The position numbers and the translations under genes were made by a program. 45,941 bases of DNA. It comes from Lachnospiraceae bacterium (lineage in GTDB: Bacteria > Bacillota > Clostridia > Lachnospirales > Lachnospiraceae). The notes under the pieces were generated by a model that saw nothing but the letters and a program-made list of their open reading frames with translations, was not told where the DNA came from and made no database searches. Positions 6,131-45,941 of this stretch are shown piece by piece (within the stretch, counting starts at the first letter, position 1; the number at the start of each line of letters is the position of its first letter). The DNA is taken from assembly GCA_017622845.1 (NCBI GenBank), contig JAGAQJ010000043.1, positions 1 to 45,941 on the forward strand. The letters are read 5' to 3'.

Positions 6131-6299
6131 TATATTGACGCTGACATTCAGCCATGCAGAAATGATTCTACAGAATGACCCTGTGAGTCTGCCCGCTAAG
6201 AGCAGCTGATACAATCATTTCTTTAGGGCAGATGGCAGTGCTAAAGAGCAAGCATTTTGGCGCATACTTCTTTCTGCTTTGATATATGGGCGGGCTGAA
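6131..6299. repeat. Intergenic structured repeat, copy A
   Basis: TTCAGCC (6147-6153) and its exact complement GGCTGAA (6293-6299) bound the element. The central helix is AGAAATGATT (6158-6167) with AATCATTTCT (6213-6222), a perfect 10 bp. After the helix comes TTTAGGGCAGATGGC, corresponding to TATAGGGCGGACGCCC in copies B and D. Just upstream a separate long hairpin (AGCATCAGTGTACAG around 6087-6101 with CTGTATATTGACGCT at 6128-6142, 14 of 15 pairs counting wobbles) resembles the one ahead of copy C. It lies between the GH13 gene and the phosphatase. Confidence 0.75.
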
Positions 6300-6335
6300 C
6301 GGTTACAAAATAAAAGGGGCGTTACCGCATTCCAC

Positions 6336-6364
6336 TTGTATTTTTGCACTAATTATATTATAGT
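6336..6364 (+). promoter_or_regulatory. Sigma-A promoter of the phosphatase gene
   Basis: TTGTAT at 6336-6341, a 17-base spacer and TATAGT at 6359-6364 make a good sigma-A promoter. The transcript would start near 6371 and include the degenerate repeat copy A2 as its leader before the start at 6528. Confidence 0.5.
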
Positions 6365-6389
6365 TAATATGGAAGCCGCAATTTGGTTA

Positions 6390-6504
6390 TGCAGAAATTT
6401 CAGTGATTATTTCCGTGCTGCCATTTTTATGGGGCAGATGCCCCGTGACATTAGTATGGCATTGCAGAGCGGCAGTAAAGGTAATGCTATCAAAGACTGA
6501 ACGG
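6390..6504. repeat. Degenerate intergenic repeat, copy A2
   Basis: The stretch keeps the order of elements seen in the other copies. TATGCAGAAAT (6389-6399) with a short GAAAT/ATTTC helix replaces the long arms. TATGGGGCAGATGCCCCGTGA (hairpin GGGGC 6431-6435, GCCCC 6440-6444) corresponds to TATAGGGCGGACGCCCG. The end reads GACTGAACGG (6495-6504). The outer left end is eroded. It lies wholly inside the predicted leader of the phosphatase gene. Confidence 0.5.
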
Positions 6505-6527
6505 ATAGAAAATATTTGGAGGAAGAA

Positions 6528-7139
6528 ATGAAGCTCTATATGATACGCCATGGTGAGACAGATTGGAATGTTGCAAAGCGTTTTCAGGGAAGATCAGATA
6601 TTCCATTGAATGAAGAAGGACGAAGACTTGCGCGTGTTACATCGGAAGCACTTAGGGAGACACATTTTACCCGAATATATACAAGTCCGTTAAAAAGAGC
6701 ATATGAAACAGCGATGATAATAAAGAGGGATAGAAATATTCCTGTGATAAATGAGCCAAGAATTATAGAAATCAGTTTTGGAGAATATGAAGGGCTTTGC
6801 TGCAGCAAAGAAAATTATAATATTCCTGATCCGGAATTTATGAATTTTTTTGACAAACCAGAAGCATATAAGCCGCCGAAGGGAGCCGAATCAATTGAAC
6901 AATTAAAAATGCGTACCGCTGATTTTTTGCAGGAAATTGTGCATAATAAAACTATGGAAAATGACACAATATTAGTGTCAACACATGGAGCAGCGCTCAG
7001 AGGAATTTTATCCGGTATAAATAACGTCAGGATAGAGGATTTCTGGAAGGGCGGCGTGCACAAAAATTGTGCAGTCACCATCGTAGAGGTGAAGAATGGA
7101 CAGGCATTCATTATTGAAGAAGGAAAAACATATTATTAA
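6528..7139 (+). CDS. Histidine phosphatase superfamily protein (phosphoglycerate mutase-like)
   Basis: A 203-residue protein with the family signature at its N terminus (LYMIRHGETDWN, catalytic His8) and the second catalytic histidine in STHGAALRG. The Arg/Glu residues typical of the fold are in place (RSDIPLNEEGRRLA; SPLKRAYETA). The enzyme should remove phosphate through a phosphohistidine intermediate. Members act on phosphosugars, alpha-ribazole phosphate and other small molecules, so the substrate is not assignable. I chose the ATG at 6528 because GGAGGAAG lies just before it. An upstream in-frame TTG at 6516 would overlap that ribosome site. It probably shares a transcript with the next gene. 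Confidence 0.85.
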   Translation: MKLYMIRHGETDWNVAKRFQGRSDIPLNEEGRRLARVTSEALRETHFTRIYTSPLKRAYETAMIIKRDRNIPVINEPRIIEISFGEYEGLCCSKENYNIPDPEFMNFFDKPEAYKPPKGAESIEQLKMRTADFLQEIVHNKTMENDTILVSTHGAALRGILSGINNVRIEDFWKGGVHKNCAVTIVEVKNGQAFIIEEGKTYY

Positions 7140-7172
7140 TAGAAAAATGTAACGAAAGAAGGCATCGTAATT

Positions 7173-7472
7173 TTGGAAAATGAATATAGCAAAGTCAAAG
7201 TAAATAATGAAATGGATTTCTGTTCTGTTACAGAGCCGGAGGTAAAGGCGGTTCTTGAGAAAGCATTTATGAAAGCAAGGGTTTCGTACTTTCTCAGATG
7301 GGAAAAGCCTGGTTTTTTTTCAAGAATTTTGGGCGGTGGAAAGACGAGGATTGTATTTTGCATTAATTCTGCCCAGCTTGATACAGCAGATGAGGTTCTT
7401 AAGGAGCTTGGAGAGATAGAAGGGGATATTAAAATGCTGAGAACCAAATCCAATAATAGGATTGGTTTTTAA
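7173..7472 (+). CDS. Small protein of unknown function
   Basis: A 99-residue frame starting at TTG 7173, preceded by AGAAGG about ten bases upstream. The protein is soluble, mixed alpha/beta, with a Gly-rich turn (RILGGGKTRIVFCIN) and no membrane segment. I do not recognise a family. It lies 33 bases after the phosphatase in the same direction and ends just before a strong terminator hairpin, so the two likely form a short operon. The TTG start is uncertain; the next in-frame ATG is at 7212. Confidence 0.6.
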   Translation: MENEYSKVKVNNEMDFCSVTEPEVKAVLEKAFMKARVSYFLRWEKPGFFSRILGGGKTRIVFCINSAQLDTADEVLKELGEIEGDIKMLRTKSNNRIGF

Positions 7473-7484
7473 GGATGTCTTTTA

Positions 7485-7528
7485 GTAAAAACAGGGGCAT
7501 AAGAAATATGCAGGATTTCTTATGCCCT
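7485..7528. terminator. Bidirectional terminator between convergent genes
   Basis: GGGCATAAGAAAT (7495-7507) and ATTTCTTATGCCC (7515-7527) are perfect 13-bp arms around a seven-base loop. The minus-strand transcript runs into five Ts (AAAAA at about 7487-7491 on the plus strand) and the plus-strand one into TCTTCTT. It sits between the small plus-strand gene and the minus-strand SH3 protein. Confidence 0.85.
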
Positions 7529-7548
7529 CTTCTTATGGTCTGAGTTGG

Positions 7549-8655
7549 TTATGGATTATTCTGCCGGTTATTTTTATCATATTCCTGCTCATCATATTCG
7601 TCTTCAAAGTATGTGTCAGATTCATACTCGATATCAGTATCCTCTTCTTCATTGTCATACGCATCCTCAGAATAGACCGCATTATTCCCGGAAGCATCAT
7701 AATATTCATCTTCAGGGCAGCTGTCATCATCTTGAAAATCGTCATCATATTCGTCTTCAGAATAGGTCATATCATCTTCGGAAGCCGTATCCTTTTTGAA
7801 AAGTCCATATACAGAATATCCAATCAAAGCAATGACGCCGAGAATGGCAAATACAAGAACGACGACGACAGGAGTTCCTAACAGACCAGAGAAAGCTTCT
7901 GTATCCGTATCAGCAGAAGGTGTTTCTGTGTCCGGCTGCTCTGTGCCGGTTTCCATATCTGTGCCGGTATCAGGCAAAGATTCTGTGCCGGTATCAGGCA
8001 AAGATTCTGTGCCGGATGGATTGTCTGCGGCTAAGGGGGTGTCGGACACATACTGCACTGCGACATATCCGTAGCCGTTGGAATAACGAATCTGATACCA
8101 GTCGTTTCCGATTTTGCCTGTCACTGTGATTTCCTGACCGTATTTGAGCGTTCCAAGCTTGTCATAGCTTGTGGCTGGTCCGCTGCGGACATTAAGTCCG
8201 GATTGTGTTGCGGCATAAACCGTCGCCTGCATGGGGGTGACGTCGAAGCTGTCATTGGAAGGACTCGAAAGCTCCGGAAGCTTGTCCTGTACAGGGGGAT
8301 TACTGCTGTTTTCCGGTGTTTGTGCCGGAGTAGAGGCGTTTTCTGGTGTTGAAGCTTCCTCTGCCGTTGACGCTTCGGAAGAAGCAGCCTCGGAAGATGC
8401 AGGTTCAGAGCTGACAGCAGAAGAGGCTTCTTCTGCCGTTGACGCTTCGGAGGAAGCAGTTTCTGAAGAATTATTATCAGGGGAAGCAGCTTCGGAAGAT
8501 TCCGGCTCGGTGGTACTGACTGAGGGGGAACTTTCTGTCTGCGCACTTTCCTCGGACGCGTGTACGGAAAGCGGCGATGCTGTGATAAGCAAGGCTGCTG
8601 ATGTATATAAAATAAATTTTGAGGTAATTAAGTTTTTGAAAAAATTTGTTTTCAT
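7549..8655 (-). CDS. SH3b-domain membrane protein with repeat linkers and acidic tail
   Basis: A 368-residue protein. A signal peptide (about residues 1-35, ending SPLSVHA) is followed by a Ser/Ala/Glu-rich linker with repeated SSEASTAEEAS units. A bacterial SH3 domain comes next (SGLNVRSGPATSYDKLGTL to YGYVAVQYVSD), then a second linker with LPDTG twice, one membrane helix (TPVVVVLVFAILGVIALIGY) and a tail of about 75 residues dominated by Asp, Glu and Tyr. SH3b domains usually bind cell wall peptides, so this is probably a wall-contacting, membrane-anchored protein with the acidic tail inside. The start at 8655 follows AGAAAGGA; an upstream in-frame start lacks one. The acidic tail means it is not a classical sortase substrate despite LPDTG. 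Confidence 0.75.
   Translation of the reverse strand: MKTNFFKNLITSKFILYTSAALLITASPLSVHASEESAQTESSPSVSTTEPESSEAASPDNNSSETASSEASTAEEASSAVSSEPASSEAASSEASTAEEASTPENASTPAQTPENSSNPPVQDKLPELSSPSNDSFDVTPMQATVYAATQSGLNVRSGPATSYDKLGTLKYGQEITVTGKIGNDWYQIRYSNGYGYVAVQYVSDTPLAADNPSGTESLPDTGTESLPDTGTDMETGTEQPDTETPSADTDTEAFSGLLGTPVVVVLVFAILGVIALIGYSVYGLFKKDTASEDDMTYSEDEYDDDFQDDDSCPEDEYYDASGNNAVYSEDAYDNEEEDTDIEYESDTYFEDEYDEQEYDKNNRQNNP
7961..8015. repeat. Perfect 24-bp tandem duplication in the SH3 gene
   Basis: The 24-base unit beginning gtgccggtatcaggcaaaga occurs at 7961-7984 and 7985-8008, followed by seven bases of a third copy. It encodes the repeated ESLPDTGT linker. Exact identity of the two copies points to a recent duplication and likely length variation between strains. 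Confidence 0.9.
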
Positions 8656-8777
8656 GAAGAAATCCTTTCTGCACGTTATGGGATAGGAGTTTGTATAAGA
8701 ACTTCGCAGTGACACTCGCTTGCACTTATTATATCATGCCCACGGAAAAGATTATATATAAAATAAATAAAAATTTC

Positions 8778-8809
8778 TTGACATTTGAGGATGGATTTAC
8801 TAGTATAAT
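8778..8809 (+). promoter_or_regulatory. Promoter of the valS T-box transcript
   Basis: TTGACA at 8778-8783 is followed by TAGTATAAT at 8801-8809. TAGTAT gives a 17-base spacer and TATAAT a 20-base one. Transcription would begin around 8815, directly ahead of the T-box stem I. Confidence 0.7.
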
Positions 8810-8828
8810 TAAATATAAATATTTTTGG

Positions 8829-9217
8829 AAAAGGTAGTGCCAAAGAGGAGTATCCGTCAGCCCCTTAGCAGAGAGAGAAATTCTGGCAGGTATGTGCCAT
8901 GTCAGGCTGTGAGATTTCTTTAAGGAAGAAATGGAGAAGGTAGCTTTGAAACCGGAGGTCTGAACAGATAATTTGAAGGTGGAAGTACTCATTATTTTGA
9001 AGTGTTTTTATTTTCAAAATGCTTTTCATTTTCAGAGTATTTTTTGTTTCATAGTAGGATTTCACGTTTTGCCTGCGTTACAGGGCAGGGCTTTGTCAGA
9101 GCATGATTAGAATTGCTCAGGGAGTCTGTTGAGATGATGCATGGGATATGCATAAAACAAAGGTGGTACCGCGTTGATTCGCCCTTTGCTGTAAGGATAC
9201 AGTGAAGGGTTTTTTTG
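8829..9217 (+). promoter_or_regulatory. T-box leader of valS, specifier GUA (valine)
   Basis: Stem I features are recognisable: CAAAG (8841-8845) pairing with CTTTG (8944-8948), the AAGAGGAGTA S-turn segment, the AGAGAG motif near 8870, and an AGAAAT/ATTTCT upper helix. On the 3' side of the specifier loop GUA (8940-8942) is followed by a purine and is a valine codon, matching the gene controlled. The conserved T-box AGGTGGTACCGCG is at 9161-9173. The intrinsic terminator pairs CCCTT-TGCTGT (9182-9192) with ACAGTG-AAGGG (9199-9209), followed by seven Ts. Uncharged tRNA-Val should stabilise the antiterminator and allow valS transcription. Confidence 0.9.
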
Positions 9218-9265
9218 ATGCACGAGCAGGGGGAGAGGGGCGTTTCTCTGCACAATATTACATGG

Positions 9266-9288
9266 GCGCCCAAAGGAAGTTTGGGTGC
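9266..9288 (+). promoter_or_regulatory. Second hairpin between T-box terminator and valS
   Basis: GCGCCCAAA (9266-9274) pairs with TTTGGGTGC (9280-9288) with one G-U pair across a five-base loop. It lies after the T-box terminator and just ahead of the ribosome site. It has no T run, so it is more likely to affect translation or mRNA stability. Confidence 0.5.
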
Positions 9289-9314
9289 AATATAATTCAG
9301 AAAGGAAAATGATG

Positions 9315-11969
9315 ATGAGTAAGGAATTAGCAAAAACCTATGATCCACATGGTCTGGAAGACAGAATTTATCAAAAATGGCTTGATAAGAAGTATTTTCA
9401 CGCAGAGGTGGACAGAAGCAAAAAGCCGTTTACGATTGTGATTCCGCCGCCAAATATTACGGGACAGCTTCATATGGGACATGCACTTGATAATACAATG
9501 CAGGATATTTTGATTCGCTTTAAGAGGATGCAGGGGTACAATGCGCTCTGGCAGCCGGGAACGGATCACGCAAGTATCGCAACAGAAGTTAAGATTATAC
9601 AGAAGTTAAAAGAAGAAGGAATTGACAAGCATGATCTTGGCCGTGAAAAATTCCTTGAGCGTGCATGGGACTGGAAGAAGGAATACGGCGGACGTATCAT
9701 CAGCCAGCTAAAGAAGCTTGGTTCTTCCTGTGACTGGGACAGAGAGCGTTTTACCATGGATGAGGGCTGTAATAAGGCAGTTACAGAGGTTTTCTGTAAG
9801 ATGCACGAGAAAGGCTACATCTACAAAGGCGCAAGAATGATTAACTGGTGTCCGGTATGTAATACTTCAATATCAGATGCAGAGGTTGAGTACGAAGATC
9901 AGGCAGGACATTTCTGGCATATTAAATATCCGGTGCTCAACGATGACGGCACGGAGTCAGGCGAGTATTTGACATTTGCAACAACAAGACCGGAAACCAT
10001 GCTTGGAGATACTGCGGTAGCGATTCACCCTGATGATGAGAGATATGCACATTTAAGAGGAAAGAAGCTGATGCTGCCTCTTATGAACCGCGAGATTCCT
10101 GTTGTTGAGGATACTTATGTAGATATGGAATTTGGTACAGGTGTTGTTAAAATTACACCGGCGCACGACCCGAATGACTTTGAGGTTGGCAAACGCCACA
10201 ATCTTCCTATTATTAATATCATGAATGATGACGCGACCATCAACGAGAACGGCGGAAAGTTTGCAGGCATGGACCGCTATGAGGCGAGAAAGGCGATTGT
10301 AGAGGAGCTTGATAAGATGGGGCTTCTCGTAAAGATTGAGGATTACAGCCACAATGTAGGTACGCATGACCGCTGCAAGACAACAATAGAACCGTTGGTA
10401 AAACAGCAGTGGTTTGTAAAGATGGATGAGCTGATTAAGCCGGCAGTAGAGGCTGTTAAAAATGGCGAGATTAAGCTGATTCCTGAGAGAATGGATAAGA
10501 CATATTACAACTGGACAGATAATATTAAGGACTGGTGTATCTCAAGGCAGCTTTGGTGGGGACATAGAATCCCTGCTTACTACTGTGATAAGTGCGGAGA
10601 GATTGTTGTGGCAAAGAGTATGCCCAAGGTATGTCCGAAGTGCGGATGCGAGCATTTTACCCAGGACCCTGACACGCTTGATACATGGTTCTCATCTGCG
10701 CTTTGGCCGTTTTCAACACTCGGCTGGCCGGATAAGACAGAGGACTTGGAGTATTTTTATCCGACAGATGTGTTGGTAACAGGTTATGATATCATTTTCT
10801 TCTGGGTTATCCGTATGATTTTCTCCGGCTATGAGCATATGAAGGAGAAGCCTTTTAAGACGGTATTGTTCCATGGGCTTGTACGTGATTCACAGGGAAG
10901 AAAGATGTCGAAATCCCTTGGAAACGGCATTGACCCGCTTGAGGTGATTGAGCAGTATGGCGCTGACGCCCTTAGAATGACACTGATTACCGGAAATGCG
11001 CCTGGAAATGATATGCGTTTTTATTACGAGAGAGTTGAGGCTAACAGAAACTTCGCAAACAAGATATGGAACGCTTCACGCTTTATAATGATGAATATGG
11101 AGGGCAAGGAGGTAACGGACGCGTCTGCTTCCTTAGAGCCTGTAGACCGTTGGATTATTTCTAAACTTAACAGCCTTGTGAAAGAAGTAACAGATAACAT
11201 GGAAAGCTTTGAACTCGGTATTGCGGTTCAGAAGATTTATGACTTTATCTGGGATGAATTCTGCGACTGGTATATTGAGATGGTAAAGCCAAGGCTCTAC
11301 AATTCGGACAATGCACAGTCACAAAATGCAGCGCTTGGGACATTGAAAACGGTATTAATCGATGCTTTAAAGCTTCTTCATCCGTACATGCCGTTTATCA
11401 CGGAGGAAATCTTTTGTACTCTTCAGTCAGAGGAAGAATCGATTATGATATCCAAGTGGCCTGAATACATGGAGTCACGCAATTTCAAAAAGGACGAGAA
11501 GGATATCGAGATTATTAAGGAGGCAGTCCGCGGCATCAGAAATGTGAGAACAGAGATGAATGTAGCGCCTTCTAAGAAAGCACATGTATTTGTCGTTTCT
11601 GAAAATGCAGACATCAGAAGAACCTTTGAGGAAGGCAAATTATTCTTTGGCTCCCTTGCATATGCTTCTGAGGTTGCCATACAAAGCGATAAGAGCGGTA
11701 TTGCAGAGGACGCGGTTTCTGTTGTGATTGCCAATGCCAATATTTATATCCCATTTGCGGAATTAGTGGATATCAGTCAGGAGATAGAGCGTCTTGAGAA
11801 GGAAGCGAAACGTCTTGACGGTGAGCTTGCAAGAGTAAACGGAATGCTCAACAATGAGAAATTTATGTCAAAGGCTCCGGAGTCAAAGATTGCTGAAGAG
11901 AGGGAAAAGCTGAGCAAGTATACACAAATGAAAGAACAAGTTGTAGAACGTCTTGCGCAACTAAGGTAA
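9315..11969 (+). CDS. valS: Valyl-tRNA synthetase
   Basis: An 884-residue class Ia aminoacyl-tRNA synthetase that charges tRNA-Val with valine. The ATP-binding HIGH signature appears as HMGH (residues 53-56) in [15 protein letters not shown], and KMSKS at about residue 530. The editing domain is the segment with [17 protein letters not shown], and the anticodon-binding and C-terminal coiled-coil regions are complete, ending in a Glu/Lys/Arg-rich helix pair. Length matches ordinary bacterial ValRS. Three ATGs lie in frame at 9309, 9312 and 9315. AAAGGA at 9301-9306 best positions the last. Regulation is by the valine T-box ahead of it. Confidence 0.97.
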
Positions 11970-11982
11970 ATAGTGTTACAAT
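11953..11982 (+). promoter_or_regulatory. Promoter of the DUF342 gene inside the valS 3' end
   Basis: TTGCGC (11953-11958), an 18-base spacer and TACAAT (11977-11982) overlap the last codons and stop of valS, giving the DUF342 gene its own start site. Confidence 0.45.
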
Positions 11983-12026
11983 ATAAGACATAGGAGGGCG
12001 GTTTTTGCTTTCCCGGAGGTGAACGG

Positions 12027-13412
12027 ATGGTTAATGTCAAATCTTATGTCAGAATAACGGATGACAAAACGGAAGCATGGCTTTATTTGTGTGCGCCTGA
12101 GGACGGCGCAAGCTATGAAAAGCCTGAAATTATGAGGTATCTGCAGCACAATGGCGTTGTGGCAGGTATTAATGAGTCACATGTAGCGGCAATGTGCAAA
12201 AAGAAAATATATGAGCGTGAGGTAAAGATAGCAGCAAGTGAGAAAGGAGAACCGGGCAGAGAAGGGCGGTTCGAGTTCTTCTTTAACACGGAGAAGCCAA
12301 AGCCTGAAATCCGTAATGATGGTACGGTGGATTATAGAAGCATGAGTCTGGTACAGAATGTCGAGGAGGGGCAGCTTCTGGCTGTATATCACCCTGCTGT
12401 ACAGGGAACGTCGGGCAGAGATGTTACGGGCGCGTTTGAAAAGGCGAATGCATATAAGGATCTCAGACCGCTTAGCGGAAAGGGAATCAGCAATGAAGAG
12501 GACCGCAACAAGTATTATGCTGCGAAGTCGGGCAAGGTGGAGTATGACGGCGAAAATAAGCTGTCCGTTGTGGAAGTGTACGAGGTACAGGGCGGATGCG
12601 ACTTTGCCAACAATGCGCTGGTGGATTTTAACGGAGATGTTATTATACATGGAAACATAGAGGCCGGTGTCACGGTGAGGGCAGGAAAGAGCCTTACCGT
12701 TGAGGGCGTTGTGGAGTCAGCAAATTTAACAGCCGGGGGCGATGTATGTCTCAAAAGAGGCATGCAGGGAGCAGGAAAAGGTTCTATCGTTGCCGGAGGC
12801 GATATTTTCACAGAGTTTCTGGAATATGCCAACGTGAAGGCAAGGGGAAGCATACAGTCCAATGTTATCTTAAACTCCAACGTCAATGCGGGCGAACAGA
12901 TTACACTGACCGGAAAGAAGGGGCTGATAGCCGGAGGAAATGTACATGCAATGCTGGGAGTCAGCTGTCAGAATGTGGGAAACCAATCTGAGATTAAGAC
13001 GGGTATTCATGTGGGAGTACTGCCTGAAATAATGGATAAGCGTATGACAGTCAACGAGGAATACAGCAAAGTCAATCAGGAGCTTGATGAAGTGGTTGCC
13101 GGTATGGCAAAAATACTCCGGGTCAGACAGCAGACAGGGGAGCTTAGCGAGCCGCTCCAGGCACATCTTGATGATCTGAAGGCAAGAAAAGATGAAGTTT
13201 ATGCAAGATGCATGGAGCTGAAAAAGCGTGCTGATGAGCTTGAGAATACGGTACTGAAATCAAGAGAGGCAAAGATAAGAATCAGCGGAAATATATACAA
13301 GGGCACGGTTATCGGGATAGATGATCGACAAATTACGGTGAATCGTGATACAAGCTTTACCGAATACTCCGCCCAAAACGGTACCATCGTAGGAAACGTT
13401 ATCGTGATATGA
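12027..13412 (+). CDS. DUF342 / FapA family protein
   Basis: A 461-residue protein of the DUF342 (flagellar assembly protein A) family. An N-terminal region of about 150 residues leads into a long series of short beta strands with Gly/Asn turns (NGDVIIHGNIEAGVTVRAGK, VVESANLTAGGDV, GSIVAGGDIF), which predict a right-handed beta-helix of polymer-forming type. A coiled-coil segment of about 60 residues follows (KVNQELDEVVAGM to KRADELENTVLK), then a short strand domain. Family members are linked to flagellar or cell-surface functions in Firmicutes, but the molecular role is poorly known. RBS GGAGGTGA precedes the start. A repeat element separates it from folC. Confidence 0.85.
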   Translation: MVNVKSYVRITDDKTEAWLYLCAPEDGASYEKPEIMRYLQHNGVVAGINESHVAAMCKKKIYEREVKIAASEKGEPGREGRFEFFFNTEKPKPEIRNDGTVDYRSMSLVQNVEEGQLLAVYHPAVQGTSGRDVTGAFEKANAYKDLRPLSGKGISNEEDRNKYYAAKSGKVEYDGENKLSVVEVYEVQGGCDFANNALVDFNGDVIIHGNIEAGVTVRAGKSLTVEGVVESANLTAGGDVCLKRGMQGAGKGSIVAGGDIFTEFLEYANVKARGSIQSNVILNSNVNAGEQITLTGKKGLIAGGNVHAMLGVSCQNVGNQSEIKTGIHVGVLPEIMDKRMTVNEEYSKVNQELDEVVAGMAKILRVRQQTGELSEPLQAHLDDLKARKDEVYARCMELKKRADELENTVLKSREAKIRISGNIYKGTVIGIDDRQITVNRDTSFTEYSAQNGTIVGNVIVI

Positions 13413-13417
13413 TTTCA

Positions 13418-13592
13418 CAGTTCAGCCATGCAGAAATGAATGTGCAAAAAGCCCGTGGGAGCTTGCTCACAAAGGGCGTTATGAGCATTCATTTCTATAG
13501 GGCGGACGCCCGTCATGAATAAGTTGTCGGAAAGAAGCCAAAAAAGCAGAGAGAAAGGCAGCCAAGGAGACAACTTATGAATGGCTGAACTG
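13418..13592. repeat. Intergenic structured repeat, copy B, with 12-bp terminal inverted repeats
   Basis: CAGTTCAGCCAT (13418-13429) and ATGGCTGAACTG (13581-13592) are perfect complements at the two ends. Inside are AGAAATGAATG (13432-13442) with CATTCATTTCT (13486-13496), GCCC/GGGC (13451-13454, 13474-13477) enclosing a GTG...CAC hairpin, the GGGCGGACGCCC hairpin (about 13500-13511), and ATAAGTTGTC (13519-13528) with GACAACTTAT (13569-13578). It carries no gene. It resembles a MITE or a structured RNA repeat and starts six bases after the DUF342 stop codon. Confidence 0.8.
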
Positions 13593-13602
13593 TTGAAAAA
13601 AA

Positions 13603-13662
13603 GCCATGCAGAAATGAATGTGCTGGACAATTAGAAATAAAAAGCCATGCAGAAATGAATGT
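13603..13662. repeat. Two solo left-end fragments of the repeat
   Basis: The 19-base string GCCATGCAGAAATGAATGT, the left end of copy B (13425-13443), recurs exactly at 13603-13621 and 13644-13662. Each is preceded by a run of As and has no right half. They are 41 bases apart and look like abortive or recombined copies of the same element. Confidence 0.75.
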
Positions 13663-13672
13663 ACAGTGATAG

Positions 13673-13715
13673 GATAAAAGGGTTTGCGGATTACTGCGGA
13701 CTCTTTTATCAATTT
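13673..13715 (+). terminator. Terminator-like hairpin ahead of folC
   Basis: GATAAAAG (13673-13680) pairs with CTTTTATC (13703-13710), and inside GTTTGC (13682-13687) pairs with GCGGAC (13696-13701) using two wobbles. AATTTT follows. It probably ends read-through from the DUF342 transcript. Confidence 0.55.
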
Positions 13716-13735
13716 TGGGATTTGAGGGAACAGAT

Positions 13736-15115: not shown

Positions 15116-15146
15116 AATTGTCAGCATTAGGATTTGGAGGACTATT

Positions 15147-15287: not shown

Positions 15288-15298
15288 GGGAGCTGGAT

Positions 15299-19624: not shown

Positions 19625-19786
19625 GGTAGCGCCAGTAGTCCCCTGTATACTGACGCTGCCATGACGATATATAAGGATAATGGTTCAGCCATGCTGATTG
19701 ACAGGCTGCCGGATTGTACAAGCTGCCCTTAGCGGTCAGGCTGTCGCGGTCGTTTTGTACAATCAGCTCTGCAGGACTGAACTGTT
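19625..19786. repeat. Intergenic structured repeat, copy C
   Basis: An upstream hairpin pairs GTAGCGCCAGTA with TACTGACGCTGC (about 19626-19659) and shares CTGTATAYTGACGCTG with the hairpin ahead of copy A. TTCAGCCATG (19684-19693) then opens the main element, which closes with CTGAACTGTT (19777-19786). Inside, GATTGTACAA (19712-19721) pairs perfectly with TTGTACAATC (19755-19764). An alternative outer pairing CTGATTG/CAATCAG is also possible. The last element bases abut TATAAT at 19790-19795, a possible -10 for trkA. Confidence 0.7.
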
Positions 19787-19822
19787 ACATATAATGTTGA
19801 TTAATTTGGAGGACTGCTTGAC

Positions 19823-35549: not shown

Positions 35550-35723
35550 TTGTTAAGTGATGATTCTAAAAAAATTGATAACAATTCCATTTAAAATACC
35601 CATTATTATATAGTAAAAACAGTTGTGGTATCAACAATATATAATGATATATTATAAAGACAGTATCTATGTGCCTTAGCTAATAAAGCTGAGGCTGTAG
35701 AATAATTGAAAGGATAGGTAAAA

Positions 35724-37279: not shown

Positions 37280-37289
37280 TATCTTTCAA

Positions 37290-37324
37290 CTTGCTGCCAT
37301 GATTTCAAATTGGCAGCAGGTTTT
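37290..37324 (+). terminator. Terminator after the Uma2 gene
   Basis: CTTGCTGCCA (37290-37299) pairs with TGGCAGCAGG (37311-37320) with one wobble, followed by TTTT. Confidence 0.75.
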
Positions 37325-37475
37325 ATACGATACACAACAGCAATTGTTAGATGATATGCGGATTGGCAAGAGTGGGTCATTCGCGAAGGAAATCAAACAG
37401 GCATGCACATTTTATATGTATTGATTCGGTTGGGCGTACTGTATGTTTTGAAAAAGACAGAGAAGGAATAGTGAA

Positions 37476-37616
37476 ATGAAAACCATAATCCACGATTTAG
37501 ATGAAAAGTATGATGTGATGTTAAAAGGAAAGTGTCAGGATATTATTAGCACCAATGGAAAATATGCGCCTTGCCAAGGGTGCTTCGGCTGTTGGACAAA
37601 GCATCCTGCGGAGTGA
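37476..37616 (+). pseudogene. Truncated N-terminus of a flavodoxin/NADPH-dependent reductase-like gene
   Basis: ATG 37476, with AGAAGGA upstream, encodes 46 residues (MKTIIHDLDEKYDVMLKGKC onward) ending CQGCFGCWTKHPAE and a stop. The CxGCFGCW segment is characteristic of the flavodoxin/NADPH-dependent FMN reductase family, where it continues as P-G-x-C into a full-length protein of about 180 residues. Here it stops at that point, so only the N-terminal quarter remains. It looks like a gene remnant. Confidence 0.6.
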
Positions 37617-37618
37617 AA

Positions 37619-37732
37619 TTTACTCGTGTCCTGCTGCCATCATTTATATTTATTCTTGTTGCAGATATATTTTTTGTTATTCGTTCCATATTTCAGGGAG
37701 GAATTTTTAAAGGCTGGCTGGCGAAGAAGTAG
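37619..37732 (+). pseudogene. C-terminal remnant of a membrane protein
   Basis: Starting two bases after the flavodoxin-remnant stop, in another frame, 37 residues read FTRVLLPSFIFILVADIFFV then a charged end (WLAKK) and a stop. One membrane helix is evident, but there is no start or ribosome site. It appears to be the tail of a lost membrane protein joined to the flavodoxin fragment by a deletion. Confidence 0.45.
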
Positions 37733-37782
37733 AATCCATTTAGTAAGGGGTGATTGGCCGGCTGCTTATTTATAAAAACCTG

Positions 37783-37811
37783 TTTACTTTGTTGCTTTAA
37801 AGTGGCATAAT
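37783..37811 (+). promoter_or_regulatory. Promoter of the acyl-CoA synthetase gene
   Basis: TTTACT (37783-37788), a 17-base spacer and CATAAT (37806-37811) make a plausible sigma-A promoter. A small hairpin (AGAGC 37829-37833, GCTCT 37848-37852) lies in the leader. Confidence 0.45.
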
Positions 37812-37881
37812 TAATAAATATGGGGCATAGAGCATTTTGAAAAATACGCTCTGGCAAAAATAATATAAGGAGTTACAAACG

Positions 37882-39516: not shown

Positions 39517-39544
39517 GGTAAGCATTTTCAATGGGAGAAAGCAT

Positions 39545-40876
39545 ATGGATTTGTTTGAATATATGAGAAATACAGCCAGGGAAAAGGATTCTCCTTTGGC
39601 TGCAAGGCTCAGACCTGCGACACTTGATGAGGTGGTAGGGCAGTCGCATATTATAGGTAAGGATAAGCTGCTGTACAGGGCTATCAAGGCGGACAAAATC
39701 AGTTCCATCATCTTCTATGGACCTCCCGGTACAGGTAAGACAACGCTTGCAAAGGTGATTGCGAACACGACAAGCGCGGAGTTTACACAGATTAATGCGA
39801 CAGTGGCGGGCAAAAAGGACATGGAGGAGGTCATCAACAAGGCAAAAGAGACACTTGCCATGTACGCAAAGCGCACAATACTGTTTATCGATGAGATTCA
39901 CCGTTTTAATAAAGGACAGCAGGACTATCTGCTGCCTTTTGTGGAGGACGGAACGATTATATTAATTGGTGCGACGACTGAGAACCCGTATTTTGAGGTA
40001 AACGGGGCGCTGATATCGCGCTCAATTATCTTTGAGCTGAAGCCGCTTGAAAAGGAGGATATCAAAGAACTGCTGAGAAGGGCGGTCTATGATATGGAAA
40101 AAGGAATGGGAAGCTTTGATGCCCAAATCGACGAAGATGCGCTTGATTTTCTTGCAGATTTGTCGGGCGGCGACGCAAGACATGCCCTGAATGCGGTTGA
40201 ACTTGGCATTATGACCACGGACAGAAGCAAGGACGGTAAAATTCACATCACGATGGAGGTGGCACAGGAGTGTATCCAGAAGCGGCGCGTATTGTATGAC
40301 AAGAACGGCGACAGCCATTATGATACGATTTCTGCTTTTATCAAAAGTATGCGCGGCTCTGACCCTGATGCGGCAGTGTATTATCTGGCAAAGATGCTCT
40401 ATGCAGGTGAAGAAGTCGCCTTTATCGCAAGGCGCATCATGATATGTGCGGCAGAGGACGTGGGAAATGCTGACCCTATGGCGTTAAATGTGGCGGTGAG
40501 CGCATCTCTTGCCGTGGAGCGAATCGGTATGCCGGAGGCACAGATTATCCTTTCACAGGCGGCCTCATACGTGGCATGTGCGCCAAAGAGCAATGCCGCG
40601 TGCAATGCCATCTTTGCAGCCAATGAGGAGATAAGAAAAAGCGGAAACCTGCCGATACCTGCACATTTGCAGGATGCACATTATAAAGGAGCAGCAAAAT
40701 TGGGACGCGGAACAGGATACAAATATGCCCATGATTACAAAAATCATTATGTGGAGCAGCAATACCTTCCATATGAGCTTACCGGAAAGAAATTTTATGA
40801 GCCGTCATGGAACGGATATGAGGCAAAAATCAGGGAGCATATGAAGAAAATTAAAGAAGAAGCGGAAGAAAATTAA
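39545..40876 (+). CDS. rarA: Replication-associated recombination protein A (RarA/MgsA)
   Basis: A 443-residue AAA+ ATPase. The N terminus PLAARLRPATLDEVVGQSHI is the family hallmark. Walker A is FYGPPGTGKTTLAK (about 57-70), Walker B ILFIDEIHRFN, and the C-terminal domain is complete to the end (YLPYELTGKKFYEPSWNGYE). It acts at stalled replication forks with SSB. GGGAGAAAG supports ATG 39545; the frame continues upstream but has no better start. Length is typical of the family. Confidence 0.95.
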   Translation: MDLFEYMRNTAREKDSPLAARLRPATLDEVVGQSHIIGKDKLLYRAIKADKISSIIFYGPPGTGKTTLAKVIANTTSAEFTQINATVAGKKDMEEVINKAKETLAMYAKRTILFIDEIHRFNKGQQDYLLPFVEDGTIILIGATTENPYFEVNGALISRSIIFELKPLEKEDIKELLRRAVYDMEKGMGSFDAQIDEDALDFLADLSGGDARHALNAVELGIMTTDRSKDGKIHITMEVAQECIQKRRVLYDKNGDSHYDTISAFIKSMRGSDPDAAVYYLAKMLYAGEEVAFIARRIMICAAEDVGNADPMALNVAVSASLAVERIGMPEAQIILSQAASYVACAPKSNAACNAIFAANEEIRKSGNLPIPAHLQDAHYKGAAKLGRGTGYKYAHDYKNHYVEQQYLPYELTGKKFYEPSWNGYEAKIREHMKKIKEEAEEN

Positions 40877-40892
40877 AAGTACGATTGAAACA

Positions 40893-40915
40893 GACTTAGC
40901 ATTTACTGCTAAGTC
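40893..40915. terminator. Hairpin between rarA and the convergent DUF4364 gene
   Basis: GACTTAGCA (40893-40901) and TGCTAAGTC (40907-40915) are perfect 9-bp arms around a five-base loop. There is no long T run on either side, so it may serve as a weak bidirectional terminator. Confidence 0.55.
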
Positions 40916-40955
40916 CGTGAGAAAACATGTTACTGGAATGAAGTGACAGGAATGT

Positions 40956-41471
40956 CTAGAATAACTCCTCCATTAAATATTTATAGATTTTTTGATTTTT
41001 ATTGTACCAACTGTCGCATATAGTCTCTGCCATATCCTCTGTGGGAACGGAGAGCTTGATATGAACCAGCTCAATATCTTTTTCCCGGGCAATCAATTCC
41101 GTCTCATATTCACCGGAGGTTGCTTTATAATAGTTTGCCGTGATAGAGGCTTCATTTTTCAACTCAAGATGCTTTTCAGAGAGGAAGGTATCGATATCAT
41201 TGATGATGGCATCACCGATGCGGCTGCCAAAATAGGATAAGGTATTCTTCCCTTCTTCCGTGATGGAAAAATAGGTACGGTTCATCAGCGTATCCGCTTT
41301 GATAAGCTCGGCATCCTGCAAATCAGAGATTACCTGCTGCAGTGTGATGAAGTTTGTGTATTCCTTCTCCAGGATAAATCCGCTGATTTGTGAGTAGGTA
41401 AGCTTGAATTTTACCTTGTTCAGCATATAGAGAACGATTAATTTATACAGTGTCAACGGGTCCTGAGTCAT
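40956..41471 (-). CDS. DUF4364 family protein
   Basis: A 171-residue protein matching the DUF4364 pattern: an N-terminal winged-helix-like segment (DPLTLYKLIVLYMLNKVKFKLTYSQISGFIL, then FITLQQVISDLQDAELI) and an alpha/beta C-terminal part. It is probably a small DNA-binding or adaptor protein of unknown role. AGGAAAGG precedes ATG 41471. Its start overlaps the end of the radical SAM gene by 29 bases, so the three minus-strand genes here form one unit. Confidence 0.75.
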   Translation of the reverse strand: MTQDPLTLYKLIVLYMLNKVKFKLTYSQISGFILEKEYTNFITLQQVISDLQDAELIKADTLMNRTYFSITEEGKNTLSYFGSRIGDAIINDIDTFLSEKHLELKNEASITANYYKATSGEYETELIAREKDIELVHIKLSVPTEDMAETICDSWYNKNQKIYKYLMEELF

Positions 41472-42429
41472 CGGATACCACACCTTTCCTATTATAATTA
41501 CAAGTTTTACGGGCAGCGGACTGCCATGTTCCGCGCCGTTTCATTTCCTGATGAAGTGTATTGAGGACGCGCCTCTTGTCAAGGCTCCAAAGAGGGGCTA
41601 TGAGTAAGTCTCTTGGTCCGTCTCCGGTGACACGGTGGATTACCATGTCGGGAGGAAGGATTTCCAGAGCAGAGATTACGATATCAATATACTCCATTAA
41701 ATCAAGAATTTCAAAGGTTTTCTTTTCGTATAATTCGACTAAATCCGTGTTTTTTAAGACATGCAGCAGTTGTAATTTGATTCCGTCAATCCCTTTATCT
41801 GCAAGAAAGCTGCAGGTTTCCAGCATCATTCTTTTATCTTCTCCGGGAAGTCCCAGAATAACATGCGTTATGATTGGGATAGATAATTCCTGAAGATTTT
41901 TTACTGCAGACTCGAAAACGGAAAGCGGATATCCGCGGCGAATCCGTTCGCCAGTCTTTTCATGGATTGTCTGTAAGCCAAGCTCTATCCAGATGAACTT
42001 ATCCGCGTATTCCCTGTTCAGTGCATCAAGCAGTGAGAGGATATCGCTGCCAAGACAGTCGGGTCTGGTGGCAATGGATATTCCCACAACAGAAGGCTCG
42101 TCAAGTGCCGCGCGGTAGAGCGTTTCCAGTCTGGATACAGGCGCATACGTATTGGTATATGCCTGAAAATAAGCGATGAAATGACTGCCGATTTTTTTGC
42201 TGTGAAAAGATTGTTTGCCTTGTTCAAGCTGGTCAGTGATGGAGACACCCTTTGCAGCAAAATCGCCGCTTCCTCCGGCGCTGCAAAAAATACAGCCCCG
42301 AACGCCGCATGACCCGTCCCGGTTCGGGCAGGTCATGCCGGCATCAAGGGCGATTTTGTATATCTTTTCGCCGTATCGCCGTTTCAGCTCGTAGTCAAGC
42401 GAATGATAAGGCTTATCGTTCCAGCGCAT
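41443..42429 (-). CDS. Radical SAM protein of the TIGR01212 (YhcC-like) family
   Basis: A 328-residue radical SAM enzyme. Cysteines for the 4Fe-4S cluster lie near the N terminus in TCPNRDGSCGVRGCIFCSAGG (Cys34, Cys46, Cys49). Later motifs include SIATRPDCL, WIELGLQTIHEKTGERIRRG and THVILGLPGED, as in the YhcC family. The reaction is unknown. ATG 42429 follows the malic enzyme stop at once (TAAAATG), indicating coupled translation, with no clear ribosome site of its own. Confidence 0.88.
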   Translation of the reverse strand: MRWNDKPYHSLDYELKRRYGEKIYKIALDAGMTCPNRDGSCGVRGCIFCSAGGSGDFAAKGVSITDQLEQGKQSFHSKKIGSHFIAYFQAYTNTYAPVSRLETLYRAALDEPSVVGISIATRPDCLGSDILSLLDALNREYADKFIWIELGLQTIHEKTGERIRRGYPLSVFESAVKNLQELSIPIITHVILGLPGEDKRMMLETCSFLADKGIDGIKLQLLHVLKNTDLVELYEKKTFEILDLMEYIDIVISALEILPPDMVIHRVTGDGPRDLLIAPLWSLDKRRVLNTLHQEMKRRGTWQSAARKTCNYNRKGVVSDDSGPVDTV

Positions 42430-42430
42430 T

Positions 42431-43585
42431 TTATCGGACAATGTGTGACTTGACAGCCTCAGCGACAAGCTCGGCAACCTTAGGATTAAACGCTTCGGGC
42501 ATAATATTGTCCTCGTTCAATTCCTCATCAGGCACAAGCCCTGCAATCGCCTCAGCAGCAGCAAGCTTCATTTCTTCCGTAATCTGTGTAGCCCGTCCCT
42601 CAAGCGCACCCTTGAAGATACCGGGGAACGCAACGACGTTGTTGACCTGATTTGGAAAATCGCTTCGTCCGGTGCCCACAACGCGCGCACCGGCAGCTTT
42701 TGCTACATCAGGCATGATTTCCGGTGTAGGATTTGCCATTGCAAAAAGGATGGAGTCGGGTGCCATAGACTGAACCATTTCCGGAGTAACAATATTGGGG
42801 GCAGATACGCCGATAAAGATGTCTGCACCTTTTAAAGCATCGGCGAGGGAGCCTGTCTCATTGTTCGGGTTTGTAATCTTTGCCATTTTTTCCTGCATCC
42901 AGTTCAGCCCCTCTGTGGAGGTTGATACGATGCCGACCTTGTCGCACATGATGACGTTGGTGAAGCCGTAGGTAAGCAGAAGCTTAGTGATGGCAACGCC
43001 TGCACTTCCGGCGCCGTTTACGACAACCTTGCAGTTTTCCTTCTGCTTGCCGACAACCTTTAAGGCGTTGATAATGCCTGCAAGCACAACAATTGCCGTA
43101 CCATGCTGGTCATCATGGAATACAGGGATATCAAGTGCTGCTTTCAGGCGCTCCTCGATTTCAAAGCAGCGCGGTGCGCTGATATCCTCAAGATTGATGC
43201 CGCCGTAAGCAGGTGCAAGCCATGTAACTGCCTTGATAATTTCCTCTGTATCCTGCGTGTCAAGACAGATAGGAACCGCGTTGACACCGCCGAACTCCTT
43301 GAAAAGAACTGCCTTTCCCTCCATAACCGGCATGGCGGCATAAGGACCGATATTGCCAAGACCAAGTACCGCACTGCCGTCCGATACAACGGCTACCGTA
43401 TTTGCCTTCATGGTATATTGATAAGCAGCCTCTTTATCCTCAGCGATAACCTTACATGGTTCTGCTACGCCGGGAGTATATGCCAGAGACAGTGCTTCCC
43501 TTGATTTGACAGGTGTCTTTGACACAGTCTCGATTTTTCCGTTCCACTCTTTATGAAGCTGTAATGCTTTTTCCTGAATTGTCAT
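42431..43585 (-). CDS. NAD-dependent malic enzyme (malate dehydrogenase, decarboxylating)
   Basis: A 384-residue malic enzyme of the short bacterial type without a phosphotransacetylase tail. The catalytic Tyr is in SLAYTPGVAEPCK and Lys in VLFKEFGGVNAVPICLD. The metal-binding acidic pair lies in VFHDDQHGTA, and the nucleotide-binding loop is VVNGAGSAGVAITKL. It converts malate to pyruvate and CO2. AAGGAGA lies before ATG 43585; the longer upstream frame lacks a ribosome site. It leads the minus-strand unit malic enzyme-radical SAM-DUF4364, probably from a TATAAT-type -10 at 43616-43621 (complement). Confidence 0.92.
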   Translation of the reverse strand: MTIQEKALQLHKEWNGKIETVSKTPVKSREALSLAYTPGVAEPCKVIAEDKEAAYQYTMKANTVAVVSDGSAVLGLGNIGPYAAMPVMEGKAVLFKEFGGVNAVPICLDTQDTEEIIKAVTWLAPAYGGINLEDISAPRCFEIEERLKAALDIPVFHDDQHGTAIVVLAGIINALKVVGKQKENCKVVVNGAGSAGVAITKLLLTYGFTNVIMCDKVGIVSTSTEGLNWMQEKMAKITNPNNETGSLADALKGADIFIGVSAPNIVTPEMVQSMAPDSILFAMANPTPEIMPDVAKAAGARVVGTGRSDFPNQVNNVVAFPGIFKGALEGRATQITEEMKLAAAEAIAGLVPDEELNEDNIMPEAFNPKVAELVAEAVKSHIVR

Positions 43586-43682
43586 AAGTAAAATCTCCTT
43601 TTTCAAATCATTCTTATTATAATGTATAATAAATCTTTGCAATTCGCAATAAATTCTTCTTTCTATTTTGGAAAAAATGAGT

Positions 43683-44162
43683 TATAATAAGCTTGCAGTA
43701 AAAATCTGGGAACTGCATCTGTTTATTTTACGAATTGACAGCATTTCAAAATGTTTTCCAAAATGATTGATTTAATAAAATTATATGGATTAGAGATTCA
43801 GCAATTGATTGCCGCGCTGATTTCTATATCATGAAGCCGCCGGCAGCAATCAATTCTTATGGATGAAAGCATAGGAGCCGGCAGCATGCGAAAAAGCATG
43901 GTCATCGTGCCGTTTCGTTCAGTCGGAGGTGAATGATGCAGCACAAGCATCATAGTCAAATCTGCTTTGTGCGGCAGTATGATTGCCGGATGGCACTGTC
44001 TTACTGGCAAGGCGTCTGAACGAGTCAATGCGGCAGCGCCGTTAGCGGAGAAAACGCAGAATAATGGAAAATCAGGCAAGGAGGCTTGCCTGGACATGAA
44101 TGATACAGTACACTGGGTTCAATATTATAAGTTCTATTATTTTTAATTTCAGAAAGGGATAA
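43683..44162 (+). promoter_or_regulatory. Long structured leader upstream of rho
   Basis: A TATAAT at 43683-43688 could start a leader of about 470 nt. It contains several perfect hairpins: AATTGATTGC (43803-43812) with GCAATCAATT (43846-43855), ATGATGC (43933-43939) with GCATCAT (43947-43953), and CAGGCAAG (44073-44080) with CTTGCCTG (44085-44092). The segment from TTCAGC (43797) to CTGAACG (44016-44022) loosely follows the plan of the intergenic repeat family. Rho genes elsewhere autoregulate through their leaders; whether this does so is inference. Confidence 0.5.
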
Positions 44163-45794
44163 TTGAGGTATATGAGAGAGAAGTACGAATCGCTGGCACT
44201 TGCCGAGTTAAGAGAAATTGCAAAGGCGCGCGGAATGAAGCGCACCAGCAGCTTGAAAAAGGCGGAGCTGGTAGAGCTGATGCTGGCGGAGGATGACAAG
44301 GACAAAGCAGCAGGAAAGGACGTGGAGCCAAAGCCGGTGCTTCGCGGCATGAAGGAGCCTTCTTATGCCACGTCCGTGCCGAACAATACAAATGACAGAA
44401 GCACAAGATATGAGCATCGGGAAAAGCCGGTAAGGGAGCCAAAGCAGTATGGCGATAACGCTGAGAGACAGTCTCAGGAGCAAAGGCAGTATGGAGACAA
44501 CGCAGAAAGACCGGTGAGGGAACAAAGACAGCACACGGATAATGCCGAGAGACAGCCGCGGGAGCAAAGGATTCCTGCAGACAGCGCTGAACGGGCGGTA
44601 AGGGAACAAAAACCTGCACCGGAAAATACGGAACGGCAGCAGGATGAGAAATTTCCGTCGGAGCTTGACAGCGGTGTTACGGCAAGAGGCATCTTGGAGG
44701 TAATGCCGGATGGCTTCGGCTTTATCAGAAGTGAAAATTTTCTGCCCGGTGAGAATGATGTATATGTGGCGCCAAGCCAGATTCGCCGTTTCGGACTGCG
44801 CACCGGTGACATTATAGAAGGAAACACACGTATCAAGACAATGAACGAAAAGTTCAGTGCGCTGCTGTATCTGAAAAAAATAAATGGATATCCGCCTGAA
44901 ATTGCAGTCAGAAGGCGCAATTTCGAGGACATGACACCGATTTTCCCCAATGAGCGCATCCGGCTTGAAACCTCCGGAGCGAGTGTGGCAATGCGTATCA
45001 TGGACTTGATGAGTCCTGTAGGCAAGGGACAGCGCGGCATGATTGTATCTCCGCCCAAGGCCGGTAAAACCACGCTTTTAAAGGAGGTTGCAAAGTCAAT
45101 TCTTAAGAATGCGCCGCAGATGCATATGATTATTCTTTTGATTGATGAGCGTCCGGAGGAGGTTACGGACATTAAGGAGGCGATTGAAGGACCGAATGTT
45201 GAAGTGATTTATTCTACGTTTGATGAGCTTCCCGAGCATCACAAAAGAGTTGCGGAGATGGTGATTGAGCGCGCAAAGCGTCTTGTAGAGCACAGAAAAG
45301 ATGTGTGTATCCTGCTTGACAGCATCACCAGACTGACACGGGCTTACAATCTGACGGTTCCGCCAAGCGGCCGTACGCTTTCAGGAGGACTTGACCCGGC
45401 AGCGCTGCATATGCCGAAGCGGTTTTTCGGAGCTGCCAGAAATATGCGTGAGGGAGGAAGCCTTACGATACTTGCAACAGCTCTTGTTGACACAGGTTCT
45501 AAGATGGACGATGTGGTATATGAGGAATTTAAGGGAACCGGTAACATGGAGATGGTGCTTGACAGAAAGCTTTCCGAAAAGCGTGTATTTCCTGCCATTG
45601 ATATCCCGAAGTCCGGCACCAGACGAGAGGATTTGCTGCTGACGCCGGATGAGCTTGAGGCAATCAACATTATGAGGAAGGCGCTGAACGGCTTAAAATC
45701 AGATGAGGCAGTCGACAAGATACTTGATATGTTCTACCGCACCAAAAATAATGTGGAATTTGTCGAAACCGTTAAAAAAATGAGGGTTTTGTAA
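44163..45794 (+). CDS. rho: Transcription termination factor Rho with repetitive N-terminal insert
   Basis: A 543-residue Rho helicase. An N-terminal helical domain (EKYESLALAELREIAKARGMK) is followed by a polar insert (about residues 50-165) containing tandem 14-residue units of the type YGDNAERQxxEQRQ. The RNA-binding cold-shock domain begins RGILEVMPDGFGFIRSENFL. The Walker A loop is SPPKAGKTTLLKEVA, followed by the Q and R loops (TVPPSGRTLSGGL) and the usual C terminus. It is longer than E. coli Rho (419 residues) because of the insert. TTG 44163 fits the AAAGGG at 44153-44158; ATG 44172 is an alternative start. Confidence 0.95.
   Translation: MRYMREKYESLALAELREIAKARGMKRTSSLKKAELVELMLAEDDKDKAAGKDVEPKPVLRGMKEPSYATSVPNNTNDRSTRYEHREKPVREPKQYGDNAERQSQEQRQYGDNAERPVREQRQHTDNAERQPREQRIPADSAERAVREQKPAPENTERQQDEKFPSELDSGVTARGILEVMPDGFGFIRSENFLPGENDVYVAPSQIRRFGLRTGDIIEGNTRIKTMNEKFSALLYLKKINGYPPEIAVRRRNFEDMTPIFPNERIRLETSGASVAMRIMDLMSPVGKGQRGMIVSPPKAGKTTLLKEVAKSILKNAPQMHMIILLIDERPEEVTDIKEAIEGPNVEVIYSTFDELPEHHKRVAEMVIERAKRLVEHRKDVCILLDSITRLTRAYNLTVPPSGRTLSGGLDPAALHMPKRFFGAARNMREGGSLTILATALVDTGSKMDDVVYEEFKGTGNMEMVLDRKLSEKRVFPAIDIPKSGTRREDLLLTPDELEAINIMRKALNGLKSDEAVDKILDMFYRTKNNVEFVETVKKMRVL
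44433..44650 (+). repeat. Coding tandem repeat in rho (42-base units)
   Basis: Five degenerate units of about 14 codons follow one another: YGDNAERQSQEQRQ, YGDNAERPVREQRQ, HTDNAERQPREQRI, PADSAERAVREQKP and APENTERQQDEKFP. Conserved positions are D/E-N-A-E-R and E-Q-R/K. The nucleotide copies have drifted, so the array is not very recent. It forms the disordered insert between the N-terminal helices and the RNA-binding domain. Confidence 0.85.
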
Positions 45795-45804
45795 TGTAAC
45801 GTAA

Positions 45805-45941
45805 CAGTTCAGCCATGCAGAAAGGATTGTACAAAATGACCGTGGGAGCTTGCTCACTAAGGGCAAGTTGTACAATCCTTTCTATAGGGCGGACGCCCGA
45901 CATGAAATAAGTTGTCGGAAAGAACAAATATTATTGTTAAA
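45805..45941. repeat. Intergenic structured repeat, copy D (runs off the window)
   Basis: CAGTTCAGCCAT (45805-45816) is identical to the left end of copy B. AGAAAGGATTGTACAA (45819-45834) pairs perfectly over 16 bp with TTGTACAATCCTTTCT (45868-45883). GTGGGAGCTTGCTCAC and the GGGCGGACGCCC hairpin are shared exactly with copy B, as is ATAAGTTGTCGGAAAGAA. The right end, expected to be ATGGCTGAACTG, lies beyond the window. It begins 11 bases after the rho stop. Confidence 0.8.

Follow-up and report, generated by a model that had tools for sequence, protein, structure and literature searches.

What is the repeat that recurs in the spacers of a 45,941-nucleotide stretch of a Lachnospiraceae bacterium genome (GCA_017622845.1, contig JAGAQJ010000043.1, positions 1 to 45,941; here called the window), with shared ends and a central helix that changes its sequence from copy to copy but stays paired? 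A preliminary description of this DNA had left three options: a miniature inverted-repeat transposable element (MITE), a repetitive extragenic palindromic (REP)-like element moved by a REP-associated tyrosine transposase (RAYT), or a multicopy structured RNA. Here we describe two results that bear on the choice. The family is a MITE, with inverted ends, 8-bp target duplications, empty sites in relatives and a matching autonomous insertion sequence (IS) of the IS66 type. In addition, the fold of one strand of its first hairpin, as RNA or as single-stranded DNA, appears to be kept by selection. The likely explanation for the whole is therefore a Lachnospiraceae MITE family that is mobilised by an IS66-type transposase and carries a kept hairpin-1 fold.

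Full copies of the element measure 183-188 bp (187 bp in the own genome, as read from copies outside the window) and end in 18-bp inverted repeats, GTAACAGTTCAGCCATGC on one side and its reverse complement on the other. At 46 of the 97 distinct insertion sites that have both ends and readable flanks, the element is framed by perfect 8-bp direct repeats, when the shuffled mean is 0.49; identity in at least six of eight flanking positions is found at 76 sites (3.4 when shuffled), and repeat lengths of 6, 7, 9 or 10 bp are seen at only 0-1 sites. An earlier tabulation of 100 rows (47 perfect, 79 with at least six of eight) had counted three of these sites twice. The left-flank 8-mers are 78% A+T. 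Within the window, spacers were read directly and the ends of copies were located by script, giving the following features:

6140..6306, plus strand: copy A, 167 bp and decayed, with its left end at 6140-6157 and its right end at 6289-6306
13414..13596, plus strand: copy B, 183 bp and almost complete, flanked by a FapA gene and a Mur-ligase-domain gene
13602..13665, plus strand: two extra left-end pieces behind copy B, at 13602-13621 and 13643-13665
19677..19788, minus strand: copy C, shortened and inverted, 112 bp, upstream of the trkA gene
45801..45941, plus strand: copy D, left part only but intact (141 of 187 bp, where the contig stops), behind the rho gene

That these four spacers hold a single repeat family, as first proposed, is borne out by a covariance model (R1, 29 copies) that finds all of them. 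Copies A, B and C are outside the model and are matched at 6140-6239 (A; 45.9 bits, E 1.1e-7; 6 and 4 of the 18 positions mismatched at its two ends), 13414-13513 (B; 94.2 bits, E 5e-19; 2 and 3 positions mismatched) and, on the minus strand, 19685-19788 (C; E 1.6e-4). Copy D is matched at 45801-45900 (116.7 bits, E 2e-24), which is no independent test because its identical twin (L009) is inside the model; by BLAST it corresponds to element positions 1-141. The layout given in the preliminary description stood as to its positions, but copy C is in fact inverted and shortened. Its claim that the elements contain no open reading frame (ORF) also held, as none of the window's ORFs of at least 80 amino acids lies within any copy. 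The neighbours of the window copies are unrelated genes. Copy D is incomplete because the assembly stopped within the repeat: the window (45941) and contig C69 (G000 C69:12648) both end at element position 141. At 13598-13665, 3' of copy B, the left-end pieces comprise AAAAAGCCATGCAGAAATGAATGT twice as direct copies, 41 bp apart.

Comparison of sites B and C between relatives, as had been suggested, shows both to be empty elsewhere. Site B lacks the element in all 23 readable congener loci (29 were fetched, the other 6 being unreadable there), the flanking genes lying close together with no end core between them, and site C is empty in the 5 readable loci among 29 fetched. The apparent terminator of the upstream gene stands close behind the stop codon in relatives and behind copy B in the window. 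The duplication around copy B is not visible any more (2 of 8 positions alike), and copy C keeps 7 of 8 (ATATAAGG / ATATAATG).

In the own genome the core 12-mer GTTCAGCCATGC is found 81 times when up to one mismatch is allowed and its reversed pattern twice, and the covariance model has 34 matches there at E <=0.001, so chance is excluded. A full copy used as BLAST query gave 68 matches in the same genome at E <=0.1, many of which are fragments, or one copy matched again on its second strand. Further copies were thus readily found, and the model has matches in 22 of the 38 genomes of the own genus. Across the family, the end 18-mer with at most one mismatch is present in 19 of 150 genomes (one per genus, own genome included), three of which bear a heavy load: the own genome with 29 end matches, G029 with 75 and G038 with 41. 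The exact 18-mer was found in at least 116 stretches of the genome collection, by title mostly Lachnospiraceae or other Clostridia, some only "bacterium" or Bacillota; the four labelled otherwise are all metagenome bins (L067 Bacillus, L071 Bacteroidetes, L150 and L152 Gastranaerophilales). Isolates with main-type copies include Lachnospiraceae bacterium IMSAGC_011 and Konateibacter massiliensis. No viral contig contains the exact 18-mer, phage records gave no match to the element, the 62 plasmid records returned are all below 60% protein identity, and a PDB sequence search returned nothing.

What moves such an element? IS66 transposases were sought because, in the part of PMC11946415 at hand, IS66 elements make 8-bp direct repeats and have ends, GTAAGCG, that are partly like those of the MITE; the likeness lies in the initial GTAA and the 8-bp repeats, and the differences in the continuation of the ends (GTAACAG here), in the absence of an ORF from the MITE and in an interior that the IS does not have. 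The autonomous partner found, L363 (436-2252; L077/L363, CAJTCH010000029.1, Lachnospiraceae bacterium A77_70.CF.DSS), is 1,817 bp long, and its ends, with the same GTAACAG, match the MITE ends in 18/18 and 17/18 positions. The identical 8-mer AATGTGGA lies outside both ends as a perfect 8-bp duplication, and the single open frame of 515 amino acids matches DDE_Tnp_IS66 (PF03050) with 68.5 bits, over the cut-off of 23.1. The one-ORF subgroup of IS66 is named ISBst12. Single MITE-type ends accompany cut-off transposase frames in G210 (L364, L365), in G029 (L367) a transposase start follows such an end (17/18) at a contig edge, and in congener G208 a 441-bp remnant of an L363-type transposase lies between two such ends. 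A related element (L368, 296-2196) has a transposase that is 53% identical and the ends GTAACAGTTCAGAC and GTAACAGTTCAGAT.

An IS66 match is present in 18 of 38 genus members and in 9 of 30 MITE-bearing genomes. The 28 IS66 loci of MITE-bearing genomes were tried as partners and rejected; just two of them, L169 with ends GTAACTATTCAG and L179 with one end GTAACAATTCAGCC, were judged close and read further. Among the 40 largest clusters of proteins shared near orphan ends, no transposase was recognised by eye. The interior module of the MITE has no counterpart in the IS, where R1 finds the ends only (11-19 bits), and internal deletion alone would therefore not turn the IS, in the form now observed, into the MITE. 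To judge from these sequences, the copies were probably moved in trans by a borrowed L363-type transposase, or by close kin now lost from the own genome. Such a single-ORF IS66-family transposase would act on the 18-bp ends and make 8-bp duplications at AT-rich sites.

Between the ends, thermodynamic folding gives a four-helix junction made of the paired ends and three hairpins. Their positions in the window copies are:

13432..13496, plus strand: hairpin 1 of copy B, variable stem with GTGGGAGCTTGCTCAC tip (A2/R1 register on copy B, inverted repeat I1)
13500..13511, plus strand: hairpin 2 of copy B, GGGC GGAC GCCC (register of A2)
13514..13583, plus strand: hairpin 3 of copy B, arms 13514-13528 / 13569-13583 (inverted repeat I5)
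45819..45883, plus strand: hairpin 1 of copy D (register of R1)

From 49 distinct two-ended elements, 33 of 183-188 bp were aligned (L131 at 3705, 187 bp, was left out); alignment A1 holds 32 of these, without L100 and its inverted tip, and A2 holds 29, without L117, L132 and copy B as well. In hairpins 1 and 2 (30 pairs, scored in 29 copies), pairing is kept in 95.1% of cells and 24 of the 30 pairs have changes on both sides, with a covariation score of 0.488 (0.155 when shuffled, none of 500 shuffles reaching 0.488, and at most 0.100 when slid). The original observation that the central helix changes but remains paired is thus upheld. RNAalifold, run on 32 full copies, proposes 53 pairs, 34 of them with double changes, hairpin 3 included. 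The fold z-score of copy L010 is -12.4 on the plus strand and -11.2 on the minus strand. Rfam gave no gathering-score match in the window, and in 16 further loci, most of other subtypes, it gave 8, none over an element; at E <=1 on three loci there were 5 matches, all below gathering (four microRNA, one RNA-OUT). The lack of an Rfam match agrees with the preliminary description, which knew of no named family, and the link to a known IS family exists at the level of ends and transposase.

In its plainest form, an IS66-type MITE might carry hairpins that are passive palindromes, kept alike by strand switching in replication. Template switching can homogenise palindromes, and the distance between ends varies from 46 to 357 bp, shorter and longer interiors of different sequence sharing the same ends, so that no particular interior seems required for mobility. 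If only DNA palindromes were kept, however, G-U and A-C mismatches arising from single changes should be equally frequent. In hairpin 1, parsimony (ties resolved towards no change, then towards Watson-Crick) assigns 51 changes from Watson-Crick to G-U versus 19 to A-C in 67 model-found copies (p 1.7e-4; only matches exactly 100 nt long were admitted, 74 chosen and 7 identical ones removed), and 38 versus 9 in 58 copies selected by their ends without the model (p 2.5e-5; 183-189 bp only, identical copies removed). At unpaired sites of the same 67 copies there are 58 G-U-making and 63 A-C-making changes (Fisher p 0.0009 versus hairpin 1), and mutation bias therefore does not explain the excess.

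The other parts of the 58 copies give 16:10 (hairpin 3), 5:6 (hairpin 2), 4:4 (junction pairs), 29:15 (ends) and 4:12 (tip), and all other helices together 58:47, from which hairpin 1 differs with p 0.003. G-U pairs reverted to Watson-Crick 14 and 17 times in the two sets and A-C never, with fewer A-C available to revert. In 54 of 58 copies hairpin 1 folds more stably as the plus strand than as the complement, and much of the tip and linkers is conserved while the stems diverge far between lineages. We regard passive palindromes as an unlikely explanation. The G-U excess suggests instead that selection would see a single-stranded form of the favoured strand of hairpin 1.

Several points weigh against the account given so far. 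On the side of the driver, the NCBIfam IS66 model NF033517 scores the L363 transposase at 136.7, below its cut-off of 180, and the MITE ends GTAACAG share only the first four bases with the GTAAGCG published for IS66 in the part of PMC11946415 at hand. The 441-bp remnant in G208 has no visible duplication. The own genome (95.3% complete, 76 contigs) has no match to PF03050 or to the L363-type transposase, and the same is true of the MITE-rich congeners G180, G182, G187 and G203. On the side of the fold, thinning the main stem to one copy per cluster at <88% identity leaves 30:11 (p 0.004), and at <80% identity 11:4 (p 0.12), where significance is lost. The p values for the 67 and 58 copies are optimistic, as the two sets overlap and the copies are related, and the model-found set may favour G-U. 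The ends lean to G-U too (29:15, p 0.049), and the tip leans the opposite way (4:12, p 0.08). The copies show no preferred direction with respect to genes (in tandem pairs, 30 run with the gene and 24 against it), the G-U excess is 16:12 in copies read along with the gene versus 14:2 in those read against it (Fisher p 0.049, in the wrong direction), and one scanned locus has no promoter enrichment and no terminator-like site. Read-through transcription was considered as the source of the strand bias and was not borne out; with orientation even and the bias not stronger in co-directional copies, it is unsupported as the site of selection. An own transcript and a single-stranded DNA form remain the candidates for where selection acts.

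The second of these is the main alternative to an RNA: the hairpin may act as single-stranded DNA in replication or transposition and so aid mobility on one strand. The bias is independent of gene orientation, as this would have it, and in DNA, too, G-T is the better mismatch. The IS itself, though, does without the module, and we hold a role as single-stranded DNA to be rather improbable.

Genomic position bears on a further possibility, a host regulatory RNA (riboswitch-like or a terminator, for example) that the MITE has spread and that is retained today because of what it does to the adjacent gene. Of 77 copies, 71 could be classified, with gene calls that are longest-ORF guesses; one lies inside an ORF and the rest between genes (70 by neighbours). 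Among 52 copies with at least 900 bp and a gene on both sides, 22 of 42 facing gene 3' ends are within 30 nt of the element versus 8 of 58 facing gene starts (23/44 and 8/60 before two rows representing one site in two near-identical genomes were dropped). Judged by coordinates, the TAA in the element's GTAACAG is where several genes end. The left end is nearer to stop codons than the right end, but weakly so (Mann-Whitney p 0.012, Fisher at 30 nt p 0.08). At L250, L305, L310, L226, L262 and others, adjacent reading frames continue into the element and terminate inside it, in some cases at this same TAA. A location just 3' of stop codons, a stable fold (z -12.4) and the strand bias of hairpin 1 would all suit a regulatory RNA; against it stand the even orientation, the unrelated genes beside the window copies, the empty sites B and C in congeners and a scanned copy with no terminator-like tail, and we consider it improbable. 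A REP-like element of the kind that RAYT (Y1) transposases move, for which the intergenic, palindromic and multicopy nature of the repeat might speak, is extremely improbable, because the own genome has no Y1 (PF01797) match (5 of 14 control genomes were positive) and Y1 single-strand transposition does not yield the 18-bp inverted ends or the 8-bp duplications seen here. Of the three options first offered, the MITE thus stands and the REP/RAYT element is not supported.

The reading that we prefer, with somewhat less than even confidence, is that a function as RNA lets the element be tolerated or be active. Its copies occupy untranslated regions, frequently right after a stop codon, and as part of a transcript their tight fold may make them harmless or useful there. 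The module concerned, foreign to the IS, comprises hairpin 1, hairpin 2 (GGGC-GGAC-GCCC) and hairpin 3, with the paired ends closing the four-helix junction. From the covariation of hairpin 1 and its one-strand bias of G-U over A-C, a structured RNA inside the MITE is possible.

The same ends also enclose other interiors. In the own genome, L033, L035, L036 and L039 have a second interior (beginning like AGTTGGTTTCAAGCAGGACGAAGG), and the stretch TTTTCTAATGGGTGATG is common to the second-interior copies of L035, L036 and L039. Further size classes (202, 174, 144, 100, 68 and 50 bp, for example) with different hairpins occur in L060, L064, L082, L133, L137 and L138 (Muricomes intestini), and size-class variants also in L108, L097 and others. 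What looked like a long composite transposon in L108, with ends 3.8 kb apart, proved to be two 68-bp elements around host genes. Known RNAs lie near some elements: in L082, Clostridiales-1 RNA (RF01699) copies at 3379-3531 and 4270-4368 flank a 202-bp element at 3604-3805, and in L130 a 6S RNA gene (5089-5267) lies between element ends (the 4998-5043 pair and 5336).

Small folded repeats and MITEs are known in general (PMC10969869, PMC2229807 and PMC3189936, in the parts at hand). In the part of PMC3049150 at hand, alignments underlie the folds shown for the pneumococcal repeats BOX and RUP, and the colour of a pairing indicates how many compatible pairs occur at the site, so that a covarying fold in a MITE has precedent; both are small, tightly folded and have inverted ends that pair together, but they have other hosts and other ends. 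We did not meet a per-strand test of G-U versus A-C in that part of PMC3049150, and no search was aimed at such a test there. QMITE2 of Coxiella and MITEPsy1 resemble the present family in their inverted ends, duplications and AT-rich intergenic sites, and have stem-loop transcripts such as might also be expected here (PMC10969869, PMC3189936, in part), but have no IS66 link: in the parts at hand, IS66 is not mentioned in PMC10969869 and appears in PMC3189936 only for two unnamed IS. The literature searched, to which most subscription papers and ISfinder did not belong, yielded no paper on an IS66-type MITE of Lachnospiraceae; within it, we did not see the strand bias, a module foreign to its driver or the IS66-type ends elsewhere.

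Bacterial MITEs are often regarded as empty pairs of ends, and here the interior bears the marks of a kept fold, namely compensatory changes and strand bias. The family explains assembly breaks and a recurrent class of spacer in gut Lachnospiraceae, and it provides a candidate working pair of MITE and IS in these bacteria. More speculatively, and in our view doubtfully, it might represent a transposon-borne RNA: a one-strand folded module, foreign to the driver IS, that selection retains throughout Lachnospiraceae even as its sequence is replaced, since spread, or tolerance in untranslated regions, would require the folded RNA or single strand. With an identifiable IS66-type driver, the function of a MITE hairpin becomes testable.

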